Shown piece after piece: positions 27,400-31,670 of a stretch of DNA of 64,000 nucleotides. The stretch lies in contig NZ_LUKF01000001.1 of NCBI RefSeq assembly GCF_001592755.1, positions 472,029-536,028 on the forward strand, read 5' to 3'. The first letter of the stretch is position 1, and each line of letters begins with the position of its first letter. The position numbers were made by a program, and so were the translations under genes. Below the pieces are notes generated by a model. That model was given only the letters and a program-made list of their open reading frames with translations, was not told the origin of the DNA and ran no database searches. This DNA comes from Bdellovibrio bacteriovorus. Its GTDB lineage: Bacteria; Bdellovibrionota; Bdellovibrionia; Bdellovibrionales; Bdellovibrionaceae.

Positions 27400-27804
27400 T
27401 TAAGGCTTTCCATCTTCAACTTCATGTGGCTTTAAGTTGAGCGACTGTAAAATGTAATTGAGGTCAGATTCATTTAAAAAACCCAGCTTTAACATTGGAA
27501 GACCATCGTTTCGATAGAGAAACAATCTTGATTTGCCGATCTTTTTATAAGAAGAAAAACTAGTCTTCTTAATCGCCTTGAAGTTAAGACTAAAAAAGTG
27601 GCGTACATATATATGCAAATCTTCAATTTTAACTGCAGGAATTCTAACTGCACATAAAGAAAATGTTAAAAGTACCACTCCCAAGCAGATGTAAATTGCC
27701 TTGTATGTTAAATTTTCTTCTGGCAAAGCACTAAAGAAAAGGATCAGAGAAATAAGAATAACTCCTACTGTAGTCTGTTTTCTATGATAAATAGATTTCA
27801 TCAT
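27400..27804 (-). CDS. Small membrane protein of unknown family
   Basis: A 134-residue protein with two transmembrane helices (about 11-28 and 36-54) and a basic cytoplasmic C-terminal part of some 75 residues. The layout resembles small bacterial PH-like membrane proteins, but I cannot assign a family. By eye it is richer in A and T than its neighbours. Its ATG overlaps the stop of a short upstream frame (TAATG at 27802-27806), and AAGG lies just before, so it belongs to an operon with 27804-27956 and 27953-28882. Confidence 0.65.
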   Translation of the reverse strand: MMKSIYHRKQTTVGVILISLILFFSALPEENLTYKAIYICLGVVLLTFSLCAVRIPAVKIEDLHIYVRHFFSLNFKAIKKTSFSSYKKIGKSRLFLYRNDGLPMLKLGFLNESDLNYILQSLNLKPHEVEDGKP

Positions 27805-27956
27805 TACTTGCCTTGCTCGTCAGCTAGCTTATCCAAAGCATCTTTTTGGATCGTAATTTTCAACAAGATCGCAGTTATTCCCGCTGTAACCGCAGCACAC
27901 ATAACCGCCGCGGCTAATGAAGCCCCTTTTTTATTTCTATATTCGTTAGCGCTTAT
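27804..27956 (-). CDS. Putative short pilin-like membrane peptide without a normal start codon
   Basis: Between two clear genes lies a frame of about 50 residues: a polar N-terminus, NKKGASLAAAVMCAAVTAG-type helix and a charged tail ending DEQGK. The stop TAA overlaps the next start as TAATG, typical of coupled genes. No ATG, GTG or TTG occurs in frame before an internal ATG at 27902 (32 residues). An ATA at 27954-27956 overlaps the upstream stop as ATAA and could be a rare start. The G|ASL junction before a hydrophobic helix faintly resembles a prepilin site. Real coding is likely from the protein character, but the start is unresolved. Confidence 0.4.
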   Translation of the reverse strand: MSANEYRNKKGASLAAAVMCAAVTAGITAILLKITIQKDALDKLADEQGK

Positions 27957-28882
27957 TTCGTACCGCTGGATTTTTTCTCTTTCGGTGCGGGGCTTGCGGG
28001 GTTCCCCATCATTCCGCCAGCATTCATACCGCCGGTAGCACCCATCATAGCACCTGTACCGCCACCGCCGATCATCATACCCATGCCACCACCGTAAACG
28101 CCCATTCCTGGATACATTTGACCGCCCATTGCGCAGGCTGTGATGAAACCTGAGACGTCCATGTTGCCGCCGATTTCTTGTTTTGGTTTTCCCGCCCATT
28201 CAAAGGTGGCAAAAGATTTTCCTTCTTTAGCTAGTTCCTTTTTTCTTTGATCAAAGGCCATCTGTGCGGAAGCGATCAAACCCACGCATTGGCTTGCGTT
28301 CTGGCTGCCGATTTGTTTCATCATCGGTTCGATTTTTGCGCAGAAGTCTTTATCGTAAGTAACTTTCGCTTCCACTTTTTTATCGTCAGGCATTTGATAC
28401 ATCAGACTTTGCTTGATATCGCATTCAGAACCGTTGCGCTCAAAAGTAGTCTCGGTGGCTTTTGTGATTGGCAAGTTCCAGCCGTTCTTCTTAGCTTCTT
28501 CGCGGTATTTCTTTTGTTCAGTGATGTCGAATTCTTTATTCACAGAAACGATTTTTCCGTCCTGTCTTTTTACGTGAATTACGCGCTGAACAGTTTCAAA
28601 CTCTGGCTTTCCCATGCCAGTGCCCATTTTCATTTGTTTCGTTTTATACACGATGGTCTCTACGCCATCTTTGTTGTTACGAGACACGATGTTTTCCGGG
28701 CGCAAAACCTGAGTAGCGCCATTCGCATCGAAATAGAGTGATGAGCCGTCGGCATCCATTCCATAAGTAAAATCTTGGACAGCACCATTAGCAGCCATGA
28801 CACACTTATCGCCAAAATAACCCATTGTTGTTGCATGCGCAGAACCTGCTAACATGACCAAGCCAAGAACTGTTTTAAACAT
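27953..28882 (-). CDS. Exported protein with Gly/Met-rich C-terminus, unknown family
   Basis: A 309-residue protein with a signal peptide ending AHAT near residue 18. The middle is an ordinary soluble domain with several Cys (MAANGAV region, SECDIKQ, KDFCAKI, SQCVGLI). The last 70 residues are low complexity, GGGMGMMIGGGG and similar, followed by a basic end. Start ATG 28882 has GGGAGG seven bases before it. The 3' end is overlapped in another frame by a long Arg-rich ORF that I regard as a by-product of the Gly/Met repeats. First gene of a probable three-gene operon. No function is assigned. Confidence 0.72.
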   Translation of the reverse strand: MFKTVLGLVMLAGSAHATTMGYFGDKCVMAANGAVQDFTYGMDADGSSLYFDANGATQVLRPENIVSRNNKDGVETIVYKTKQMKMGTGMGKPEFETVQRVIHVKRQDGKIVSVNKEFDITEQKKYREEAKKNGWNLPITKATETTFERNGSECDIKQSLMYQMPDDKKVEAKVTYDKDFCAKIEPMMKQIGSQNASQCVGLIASAQMAFDQRKKELAKEGKSFATFEWAGKPKQEIGGNMDVSGFITACAMGGQMYPGMGVYGGGMGMMIGGGGTGAMMGATGGMNAGGMMGNPASPAPKEKKSSGTK

Positions 28883-28936
28883 TGTTCCTCCCGATAGTTC
28901 CAGTAAATTTTTTGAAATACGAACTTAATTAGGATA

Positions 28937-28965
28937 ATGGGAATACTGTGGTTCTACATTCCCAT
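28937..28965. repeat. 8-bp perfect inverted repeat upstream of the Gly/Met-rich protein gene
   Basis: ATGGGAAT and ATTCCCAT face each other across 13 bases. There is no T run after it on either strand, so a terminator is unlikely. It sits 55-83 bases before the start of 27953-28882, a usual place for an operator. Confidence 0.5.
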
Positions 28966-29005
28966 ACCTTCAAATCTGGACCTTAAAGTGTTTTCCTCAG
29001 GAAAT

Positions 29006-29305
29006 TTAGGGCTTAATTCGCGAAACAATCCGACAACTAGAAAGCTCTACCACGTGTTTGACCGTCTTTTGTTGGCCGCAAGCTAAGATATATTTTGGAC
29101 ACGCTTGGTTTTCTTCGTAATAGCAAATCTGCCCCTGGCGCTGTTTTGCGTGCCAGTTAATACGATAGCGGGGATCAGTGGATGTCGGGGCCTGACTTAA
29201 CCACACCTTTCCATTTTCTTGAAAGACATATCCTTCCACCTTCGTGTTCTTAGCGAAAACAGAAGCCGAAAATAGCAATATCGAAGTAAAGATTATTGAC
29301 CTCAT
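29006..29305 (-). CDS. Small exported four-cysteine protein coupled to the clan CD peptidase
   Basis: A 99-residue protein. Residues 1-18 are a signal peptide ending VFAK. The mature part has four Cys (GQICYY, NQACPK, ILACGQ, LSSCRI), probably forming two disulfides in the periplasm or outside. It is not a family I recognise. Its ATG overlaps the stop of the peptidase gene (ATGA at 29302-29305), which suggests equal production. A small secreted partner such as an inhibitor or a chaperone is possible but unproven. Confidence 0.65.
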   Translation of the reverse strand: MRSIIFTSILLFSASVFAKNTKVEGYVFQENGKVWLSQAPTSTDPRYRINWHAKQRQGQICYYEENQACPKYILACGQQKTVKHVVELSSCRIVSRIKP

Positions 29306-30903
29306 CGTACCCCCGACTTACTTTTTTCACGACTGGAGCTTTGTTCATTTATTTTCTCAAATCCCATTTGCGCGATTTCTTCAAGTCGCGCCCAGGATTT
29401 TTCGGAAGCCCCCGCTGCGAACTTTTCTATACATCGAGCTTCTTCAGAATAAAAATCTTCGTGCGGTTTAATCATCTCGCAATAGCTAGCAATGGGTTTT
29501 GAATTGCTTGTAAACGCCAGATAAGTATCAACCGCGTTTTTTCCTACATGCTGCTTGAAGCAATCTTGTCTTCTTTGTGACTCTTTAAATGTTTGTTCGG
29601 CGCTAGCTAAGGCGGGAATTGGACGAGCACACTTATTTATGACATGTCTTGGATTTAGTGAAGTTTTCGACCAATCCATAAATACCGTTTCCATGTAGGC
29701 TGCTTTTCCTTGAGCACATGCCGACGGAACCGGTTTCTGATCACAGGCCTTTAAGTCTTTAGCTAAATCTTCAATTTTTCTTTTCTTATATTCTTCAAAT
29801 CCCGCTTCATCGTTAATCGCATAAAGTTCTTCCAAGCGATTGCGTATTTCTGCTTTACGTAACTCCGAAGCTTCATCATCACTTTCGCGATAAAAATCCA
29901 TCTCCCCTTGAAGATTTTCAATCATGCGTGGAAGGTCGGTTTCCATATTTCCGTTTTGAATCAAGGCCTTCAGCTGTTCAATGGCCGCGGCCTCAAAAGC
30001 GGACCGGTTCTTTTTAAGTTCGTTCTTTTCGGCCTCTACCATTTCCTTTTTACTGCAACCTGTTTTATTTTTTAAATCACTGAGGTATTTCAAATTCAAA
30101 GTGTTCTGCGACAGAAGGTTTTTAACAATCTTCCCTCGCTTCTCGCTGATTTTTAGTGATGAATTTTCTTTCGAGTCACGGCACCGGTTTTCGACAAACG
30201 CCTGGGCCTGACTACGTGGTAATGAGAATACGGCCGGATTCGTGAATGGAAATTGCGCCGGATGTCCCATCTGAATTTTTTTATAGTCTTCGCTAGCTTT
30301 TAAGAACGCCTCTTCATAACTGCTGCCTTGATCAAGCGCACGCTGAAAAAATACTGGAAAGTCATGAGCCATGACTTCGTCTCCAGCCACTTTCATGGTC
30401 CAAGCTTTTAAGTCCGATCTTGTGGAAGCAAAGGCTTGTGTCTTAGGAAGATCGGAAAGAGCTTCAGGTATCTTGCCACTATAACAGTTCAGTGCATAAA
30501 CCGTAGTTTCTGCTTGGGGGTTGCTTTTTTGAAAAGCTTGGAGAGAATTTTTAAGATCTTGGACTTCAATAGATTTTTTATAATCTGTATTAATGCCGTC
30601 TGAAACAGCCAGGTAATACTTGTCATCCTTTACAATCCCGTGGCCTAAAAATTCAACGTGAAGTGAATCCACGTTCTTTAATTGTTTTAAGCTTTTTTCA
30701 AAATTAGATTTCTCTGCTTTGGTTTTCGCACCGGGAGAAAGACGTACGATTTTATAGCCGTAGGTTTCATAGAACTTAATCGCGGATGCTTCTCGTTCTT
30801 TTAATACTGGATGGGAGTCTCCGACAAAAAGCACGGCCACCTTATCGCCAGCAAATGAAGAAACGCACCAGAATGTCAGCAATATCGAAAAAATAGATTT
30901 CAT
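29302..30903 (-). CDS. Secreted clan CD (caspase/legumain-like) cysteine peptidase
   Basis: A 533-residue protein with a signal peptide (1-18). Residues about 20-230 have the caspase-like fold order: a VAVLFVGDSH strand, then VEFLGHGI carrying His88, and YALNCYSGK carrying Cys140. The H-G near the end of one strand and C-x-S-G at the end of the next match clan CD peptidases. The C-terminal 300 residues are charged helices with scattered Cys and no recognised domain. The start is ATG 30903 with AAAAGGG directly against it, an unusually short spacing. The specificity pocket and any self-cleavage site cannot be deduced. Confidence 0.75.
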   Translation of the reverse strand: MKSIFSILLTFWCVSSFAGDKVAVLFVGDSHPVLKEREASAIKFYETYGYKIVRLSPGAKTKAEKSNFEKSLKQLKNVDSLHVEFLGHGIVKDDKYYLAVSDGINTDYKKSIEVQDLKNSLQAFQKSNPQAETTVYALNCYSGKIPEALSDLPKTQAFASTRSDLKAWTMKVAGDEVMAHDFPVFFQRALDQGSSYEEAFLKASEDYKKIQMGHPAQFPFTNPAVFSLPRSQAQAFVENRCRDSKENSSLKISEKRGKIVKNLLSQNTLNLKYLSDLKNKTGCSKKEMVEAEKNELKKNRSAFEAAAIEQLKALIQNGNMETDLPRMIENLQGEMDFYRESDDEASELRKAEIRNRLEELYAINDEAGFEEYKKRKIEDLAKDLKACDQKPVPSACAQGKAAYMETVFMDWSKTSLNPRHVINKCARPIPALASAEQTFKESQRRQDCFKQHVGKNAVDTYLAFTSNSKPIASYCEMIKPHEDFYSEEARCIEKFAAGASEKSWARLEEIAQMGFEKINEQSSSREKSKSGVR

Positions 30904-30941
30904 CCCTTTTAGAATATCGAAGGGAGATAGTGTAAGGAATA

Positions 30942-30970
30942 GGGCGCCAAAAGAACTGGTCTAGGCGCCC
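30942..30970. repeat. GC-rich intergenic hairpin
   Basis: GGGCGCC pairs with GGCGCCC across 15 bases between two minus-strand genes. The T-rich flank (TTCTTTTTAT) is on the plus-strand side, so as a terminator it would face the wrong way for these genes. It may be a weak attenuator or mRNA stem. Confidence 0.5.
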
Positions 30971-30980
30971 TTCTTTTTAT

Positions 30981-31670
30981 CTATGGGAGTTTGAGCTTTG
31001 GACAACGTTTTTGAATAAACGTCAGCATCGCTTTGTCATTGTACTTAAGATAAATGTCGCCATCGCTTGTGTACTTAAAAAGTTCTGAGTTCTTCACGGA
31101 ACATGACGTGTTGTTCACATCTTTAAAAACAGAATTTGCGTTTGAATTCGACGTGGGAGGAGAACCTAATTTAAATCCACCATCCAACACAATCCCTTGG
31201 AAGTTTGTGATTTCAATGCCACCGCGGTTGGAGGGCTCGACATAATCAGCCACTACAACATTTGCGCGCGTGATGCTTTTTAAACGAGCTTTCTTGGATT
31301 CAAATACGAACTTGTCACCCGTCACGTGGGTGACGATCAATTCACGGGTGTCGTCTTTCCATTCGTAGGAAAAAGCTTCGGTATTTCTTGGGAAAAGGTA
31401 GAACTCACGAGCCCCCGTTGTTTGGGATTCGTCACCTGGCCCAAATGAGTTAAAGACCATGAACATGCCTTCTGAAGTGAAAAGATGGTCGCGATAGATC
31501 AAGTCTTTCCAGGCGTCGTCTGGCGTGACAGAGAAAAAACACTCTCCATTTCCTGACAACATTTGTTGGATTTTTGTTCCATCACGGCGTTCAGCGATGT
31601 CAGGGCAGCTTGCCTGATCCGCAGCGTGGGCTATTCCTACAGATAAAATAAGACTTAACAAGAATGACAT
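30981..31670 (-). CDS. Exported protein of unknown family
   Basis: A 229-residue protein with a short signal peptide ending AHAA near residue 16. The mature part is beta-rich (MFMVFNSFG, EAFSYEWKDDTRELIVTHVTGDKFVFESK) with five Cys, one near the C-terminal RCPKLKLP end. GGGGG lies four bases before ATG 31670. It lies upstream of the clan CD peptidase on the same strand, separated by a hairpin. No family is recognised; the secreted location is the only supported statement. Confidence 0.72.
   Translation of the reverse strand: MSFLLSLILSVGIAHAADQASCPDIAERRDGTKIQQMLSGNGECFFSVTPDDAWKDLIYRDHLFTSEGMFMVFNSFGPGDESQTTGAREFYLFPRNTEAFSYEWKDDTRELIVTHVTGDKFVFESKKARLKSITRANVVVADYVEPSNRGGIEITNFQGIVLDGGFKLGSPPTSNSNANSVFKDVNNTSCSVKNSELFKYTSDGDIYLKYNDKAMLTFIQKRCPKLKLP

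Follow-up and report, generated by a model that had tools for sequence, protein, structure and literature searches.

Putative exported clan CD cysteine peptidases of Bdellovibrio and its relatives are encoded beside small exported partner proteins

In the SpeB/Spi and staphopain/staphostatin systems an exported peptidase is encoded next to its own small inhibitor, and in Bacteroides fragilis the Bfi inhibitors, of 116-138 aa, are encoded within 35 bp of the Bfp proteases (PMC2873492). For prokaryotic metacaspases, a survey reported many operon types, among which a protease/protease-inhibition operon was confined to four Rhizobium strains (PMC3501461). The gene pair described here resembles the C10 proteases with Bfi, SpeB/Spi and staphopain/staphostatin in layout, since in those systems a secreted cysteine protease is accompanied by an adjoining, co-transcribed gene for a small inhibitor, and some of the inhibitors are exported (PMC2873492). 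Those proteases, however, are papain-like enzymes of clan CA (C10 and C47), and the partner protein in question here has no match among known inhibitor families. A second likeness is to Bd3459/Bd3460 of Bdellovibrio, in which an exported hydrolase of a predator is co-transcribed with a small, exported inhibitor, a self-protection protein encoded downstream (PMC4686830); there, however, the enzyme is a peptidoglycan DD-endopeptidase and the inhibitor an ankyrin-repeat protein.

The gene layout is already known; what is new, relative to the literature searched, is the combination of a putative clan CD enzyme with an unnamed partner family. A reading of the DNA made from its sequence alone (hereafter the sequence-only reading) knew of no described system with such a pair, and no description was found in the literature searched, subscription papers and preprints lying outside its scope. 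The words ‘caspase’ and ‘cysteine’ are absent from the main text of a 2025 Bdellovibrio proteome paper.

The gene pair and its surroundings

The window, that is the whole stretch of 64,000 nucleotides that was analysed, carries the pair on its minus strand, with the following features.

29302..30903, minus strand: predicted exported clan CD cysteine peptidase, 533 aa (P0001); ORF with invariant His88/Cys140 and a sub-cut-off Pfam Peptidase_C13 match
30850..30903, minus strand: signal-peptide-like N-terminus of the peptidase, residues 1-18; hydrophobic stretch ending SFA, followed by GD
30199..30849, minus strand: predicted peptidase domain, about residues 19-235; region common to all relatives, with a profile-profile match to the second subfamily
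30640..30642, minus strand: codon of the putative catalytic His88; His aligned in 66/66, caspase HG in register
30484..30486, minus strand: codon of the putative catalytic Cys140; Cys aligned in 66/66, legumain ACESG in register
29305..30198, minus strand: C-terminal region of the peptidase, about residues 236-533, charged, with eight Cys; from sequence and Cys positions
29006..29305, minus strand: small exported partner protein, 99 aa (P0004), Cys 61/69/76/91; ORF with homologues adjoining the peptidase in G018, G124, G315 and G368
29302..29305, minus strand: four-base ATGA stop/start overlap of the peptidase and partner genes; from sequence

The two ORFs and their four-base overlap are thus present as first proposed. 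The proposal that both products are exported also held, in that a hydrophobic, signal-peptide-like stretch opens each protein (MKSIFSILLTFWCVSSFA in the peptidase and MRSIIFTSILLFSASVFA in the partner). Signal peptides were assessed by hydropathy alone, a crude and loose test, by which a hydrophobic N-terminus is present in each of the 60 peptidase relatives whose 5' end is complete.

The sequence-only reading had also placed the pair within a block of secreted unknowns (27400-31670). This suggestion failed on comparison with another species of the genus (G008), in which tatC, the 229-aa gene and a 302-aa gene are kept, the pair is missing and the flanking genes lie 163 bases apart (L169). The region 27400-31670 was rejected as one functional block because its flanking genes (229-aa and 309-aa in the window) adjoin each other there without the pair. 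The intact neighbourhood in G008 indicates that the two genes were acquired together at the window locus, or lost together elsewhere.

The 229-aa exported protein (window 30981-31670), whose gene follows tatA/tatC, is a member of an unnamed family represented as many as three times in a genome of the genus. The 309-aa exported protein (window 27953-28882) is kept in two related species and carries a Gly/Met-rich low-complexity tail (GGGMGMMIGGGGTGAMMGATGG...). An inverted repeat, GGGCGCC...GGCGCCC (window 30940-30970), lies in the gap that separates the peptidase gene from the 229-aa gene; it is followed by a T-rich run on the plus strand and was not listed by the repeat scan because its loop is too long. 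It is possibly a terminator that parts the pair from the upstream gene.

Catalytic dyad and family placement

His88 (LGHGI) and Cys140 (NCYSG) had been taken as the marks of a clan CD enzyme, and wider alignment bears this out. The two aligned residues never vary among the nine close-family members, and an alignment of 66 peptidases from the wider family shows both in every sequence; the His is followed by Gly in 64 of these, and 65 have the Gly of the C-x-[SG]-G motif (two residues after the Cys, or later in the motif). Such conservation is strong evidence of selection on a clan CD dyad. Moreover, the window peptidase shows the arrangement typical of the clan, a hydrophobic strand leading to HG and a second hydrophobic strand leading to Cys, with His and Cys invariant. 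These features support the prediction that the large protein is an exported clan CD (legumain/caspase-type) cysteine peptidase, and suggest that it would be proteolytically active.

In Pfam, the window peptidase does not reach the cut-off of Peptidase_C13 (PF01650; 15.8 vs 22.8 bits, residues 79-192); a relative from G234 passes it with 26.3 bits. The window peptidase has no match to C14 (PF00656), which one relative matches weakly (E 0.003), no helpful match in NCBIfam, and none in a PDB sequence search with the single sequence. In a weak PDB profile alignment, Cys140 falls on the catalytic Cys of legumain (ACESG). The likeness to legumain and family C13 lies in an HG...C dyad in the same order, in C13 being the best Pfam match of the window family, in export and in a long C-terminal region. 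However, the window protein scores under the C13 gathering score, is bacterial and has a small partner gene, and its C-terminal region has no detected sequence relation to that of legumain. This region contains Cys at positions 241, 283, 387, 396, 425, 448, 475 and 491 and differs in length among relatives; by analogy with legumain, it is possibly an activity-modulating tail.

Near-threshold matches of the core profile, read singly, yielded twelve loci with exported HG...C[YHFK][SG]G proteins, which form a second subfamily homologous to that of the window peptidase (hhalign E 2.5e-18). The second-subfamily profile matches PDB metacaspases (SCHSG), its catalytic His and Cys being aligned with theirs (best E 7.2e-5), and through this homologous sister subfamily the sequence profiles suggest a caspase-like α/β fold, with the corresponding dyad geometry, for the window family. 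The likeness to metacaspases and orthocaspases (C14B) comprises the aligned H and C of the sister subfamily and the active-site motif SC[YH]SG; in contrast to these enzymes, only one member of the family has a Pfam C14 match, and a weak one, and the pair is absent from the operon types of the metacaspase survey (PMC3501461).

Distribution and constancy of the pairing

The exact pair of the window is rare, being found in two of about 24 genus members. Among 60 relatives, close copies of both genes occur in one other species of the genus (G018; 95% and 93% identity). A metagenome assembly of a Bdellovibrio sp. (G031), which gave the sole relative found in one genome-collection scan, has a distant peptidase close to the end of a contig, where no partner can be seen. 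In another family of the order, a three-peptidase profile found a peptidase in G124 that is 21% identical and keeps the dyad; directly behind it, with a four-base overlap, is encoded a 99-aa exported protein with the C...ACPxY core of the window partner. Searches across the phylum brought in three further genomes in which a peptidase gene and a partner gene share a four-base overlap (G315, G368 and G234), as well as two window-type peptidases that lack a partner despite adequate surrounding sequence (G153 and G154:C162). Weak matches in G194, G263, G344 and G137 were discarded as spurious: they fall in stop-interrupted frames or in genes of a different kind, for instance those for a periplasmic binding protein and an aconitase. 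A plasmid search gave no match, and viral contigs scanned with profiles A1 and A7 gave nothing usable.

The second subfamily is the more common. It is present in about half of the genus members that were searched, and nearly all of the twelve loci have a small exported protein adjoining the peptidase, upstream or downstream. One family accounts for these partners, and its shared features are C[G]xY...G at a conserved N-terminus, a hairpin with TxSE, and P[DN]PL...C at the C-terminal end. The genome of the window itself has such a pair (L121, G000:C19, about 292242-292964), in which a peptidase of 445 aa and a partner of 161 aa overlap by four bases.

Whether the pair is kept together, a point on which the sequence-only reading had let its claim depend, was addressed by a co-occurrence search. 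Profile searches of up to 369 genomes of the phylum gave 67 distinct peptidase genes, 62 of which have an adjoining, same-strand gene for a small exported protein, a total that is partly non-independent in that some partner profiles were built from adjoining proteins. The five partnerless peptidases are L028, L030, L037, L104 and L124; two of them (L104 and L124) are fragments at contig edges, and L037 stops near a contig end. The window pair is one case of a large class, with more than 60 pairs across the phylum of Bdellovibrio-like bacteria, that is apparently undescribed.

Independent tests of the pairing were provided by separate searches with a peptidase profile (A7) and a partner profile (A8). 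The A7 search of 140 genomes of the order matched in 21, and a partner was found at all non-seed, non-edge loci except L130 and L135. These two encode peptidase-like proteins, one multidomain and the other a lipoprotein, and were left out of the pair count. Seventeen of the partners at A7 loci are recognised by the separately built A8 profile, and a further four loci (L123, L126, L128 and L137) have a small exported neighbour that A8 misses. At L123 (G087:C27) a TAA codon breaks the peptidase gene and the small neighbour gene stays open.

Conversely, the A8 search of 115 genomes of family f12 matched in 34, and 30 loci were examined. A profile-recognised peptidase adjoins the partner in 28 of the 30; the remaining two are L157, at the edge of its contig, and L167, where the peptidase is diverged (FCFSGG) and its gene overlaps that of the partner by four bases. 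Searching with the partner only led to a peptidase neighbour in 22/22 loci, a count that omits seven seed loci and the contig-edge case. This return from partner to peptidase upholds the idea of protease and small protein as a real two-gene unit. No stand-alone partner copies were found, and none of the window type in the 369 genomes searched with the window-type partner profile.

In 59 of the 61 profile-matched pairs the two genes are spaced within -30 to +20 bases, and in 27 at exactly -4, the spacing of all window-type pairs. The peptidase gene is first in 39 pairs and the partner gene in 22; the occurrence of both orders indicates a functional linkage rather than one frozen arrangement. 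Within the same -30 to +20 limits, a small exported ORF accompanies 19/22 peptidases vs 16/91 other genes of the same loci, the latter value being likely overestimated owing to the loose hydropathy test. Moreover, the distance matrices of peptidases and partners are correlated (r = 0.78, 49 pairs; permutation maximum 0.21), which shows co-inheritance and does not imply contact. Genomes with several peptidases have one partner per peptidase, as in G154 (L109).

Some loci have more elaborate arrangements. L109 (G154:C498, 577-4488) has the order peptidase-partner-partner-peptidase, two complete pairs placed back to back on one strand. G030 has four peptidase copies (L112, L131/L136), and one pair adjoins a gene for a subtilisin-like serine protease.

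The partner protein and its possible role

The window partner has four Cys, at positions 61, 69, 76 and 91. The sequence-only reading had treated these as its defining feature, and here it was too broad: the four-Cys form is limited to this species pair, distant homologues keep only Cys61 and Cys69, and mature partners mostly have two Cys. The partners match no entry in Pfam, NCBIfam or PDB, and searches with 6, 18 and 44 partner sequences gave no convincing match to peptidase inhibitors of known family, staphostatin among them, in Pfam, a result that counts against the inhibitor explanation given below. Partner sequences are strongly diverged and fall into types without proven homology to each other. 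Between the window type and the commonest type (A10 and A11) homology is unproven (hhalign E 5.7e-4, probability 29%), and the register of the first hairpin, with a C-terminal PL motif in some partners, hints at it. A single mechanism for all pairs is an assumption, as these types are not provably homologous.

The small protein is probably an inhibitor or a helper of the adjoining protease. The genes are adjoining, co-oriented and conserved and their products both have export-type N-termini, as in protease-inhibitor systems; pairing, matched export, small partner size and precedent together favour an inhibitor. An exported cysteine peptidase with its own secreted inhibitor or self-protection protein is the best explanation, one in which belief and doubt are evenly balanced. 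The partner would be small, exported, probably disulfide-bonded and mostly β, and would most likely bind its cognate peptidase and inhibit it within the periplasm of the producing cell, giving self-protection. Translational coupling would keep its output in step with that of the enzyme, which may then act freely after its release into prey, or wherever it is extracellular or apart from the partner. The host is presumably a predator, judging from its kinship; the link to predation is inferred, as are partner binding, inhibition and location.

A chaperone or subunit would account for adjacency and co-inheritance just as well. The partner could be an activator, folding chaperone or regulatory subunit that aids folding or substrate presentation, the mature enzyme then being heterodimeric. 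The same adjacency, overlap and co-inheritance speak for this, as do the two gene orders and the frequent need of clan CD enzymes for accessory regions that stabilise them; legumain, for example, is unstable without its C-terminal domain (PMC4357240). However, the long C-terminal regions of the peptidases could already fill such a role, and the window-type peptidases of G153 and G154:C162, which lack a nearby partner gene, together with that of G031 near its contig end, indicate that the peptidase is not always partner-dependent, a point that weighs against an inhibitor as well. We consider an activator or chaperone rather unlikely, but it is the main rival of the inhibitor.

The divergence of the partners, and their types without proven homology, would also suit two independent, co-expressed secreted factors (for example in digestion of prey or of biopolymers) that make no contact, or a partner that the peptidase releases as its substrate or as an effector; but pairing is strictly one-to-one, even where a genome has several pairs, and the searches found no stand-alone partner copies, which makes this improbable. 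The large protein might instead be no protease at all, with the clan CD fold serving a binding, non-hydrolytic function and the pair forming a structural or adhesion unit. The sub-cut-off C13 score of the window member (15.8 vs 22.8 bits) and its lack of a PDB match on its own agree with this, yet the dyad is aligned in 66/66, both residues are in register where the profile of the sister subfamily matches metacaspases (E 7.2e-5), and one family member exceeds the C13 cut-off (26.3 bits), so that we hold it to be very improbable. Extending the inhibitor explanation to the whole phylum is a tentative step, in which doubt somewhat outweighs belief: predators would possess an expanded set of exported caspase/legumain-type peptidases, each with a clan CD inhibitor, of a new family or families, that protects the producer.

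Overall, dozens of uncharacterised, predicted exported caspase-like enzymes of Bdellovibrio-like bacteria belong to fixed units of two genes, in which the other gene specifies a matching small protein. If the partner inhibits its enzyme, the pairs would constitute a natural, genetically encoded set of clan CD inhibitors and offer a handle on how predators avoid self-digestion; if it is an activator, they would represent a new mode of control for a caspase-like enzyme. In either role, more than 60 enzyme/partner pairs are open to direct testing.
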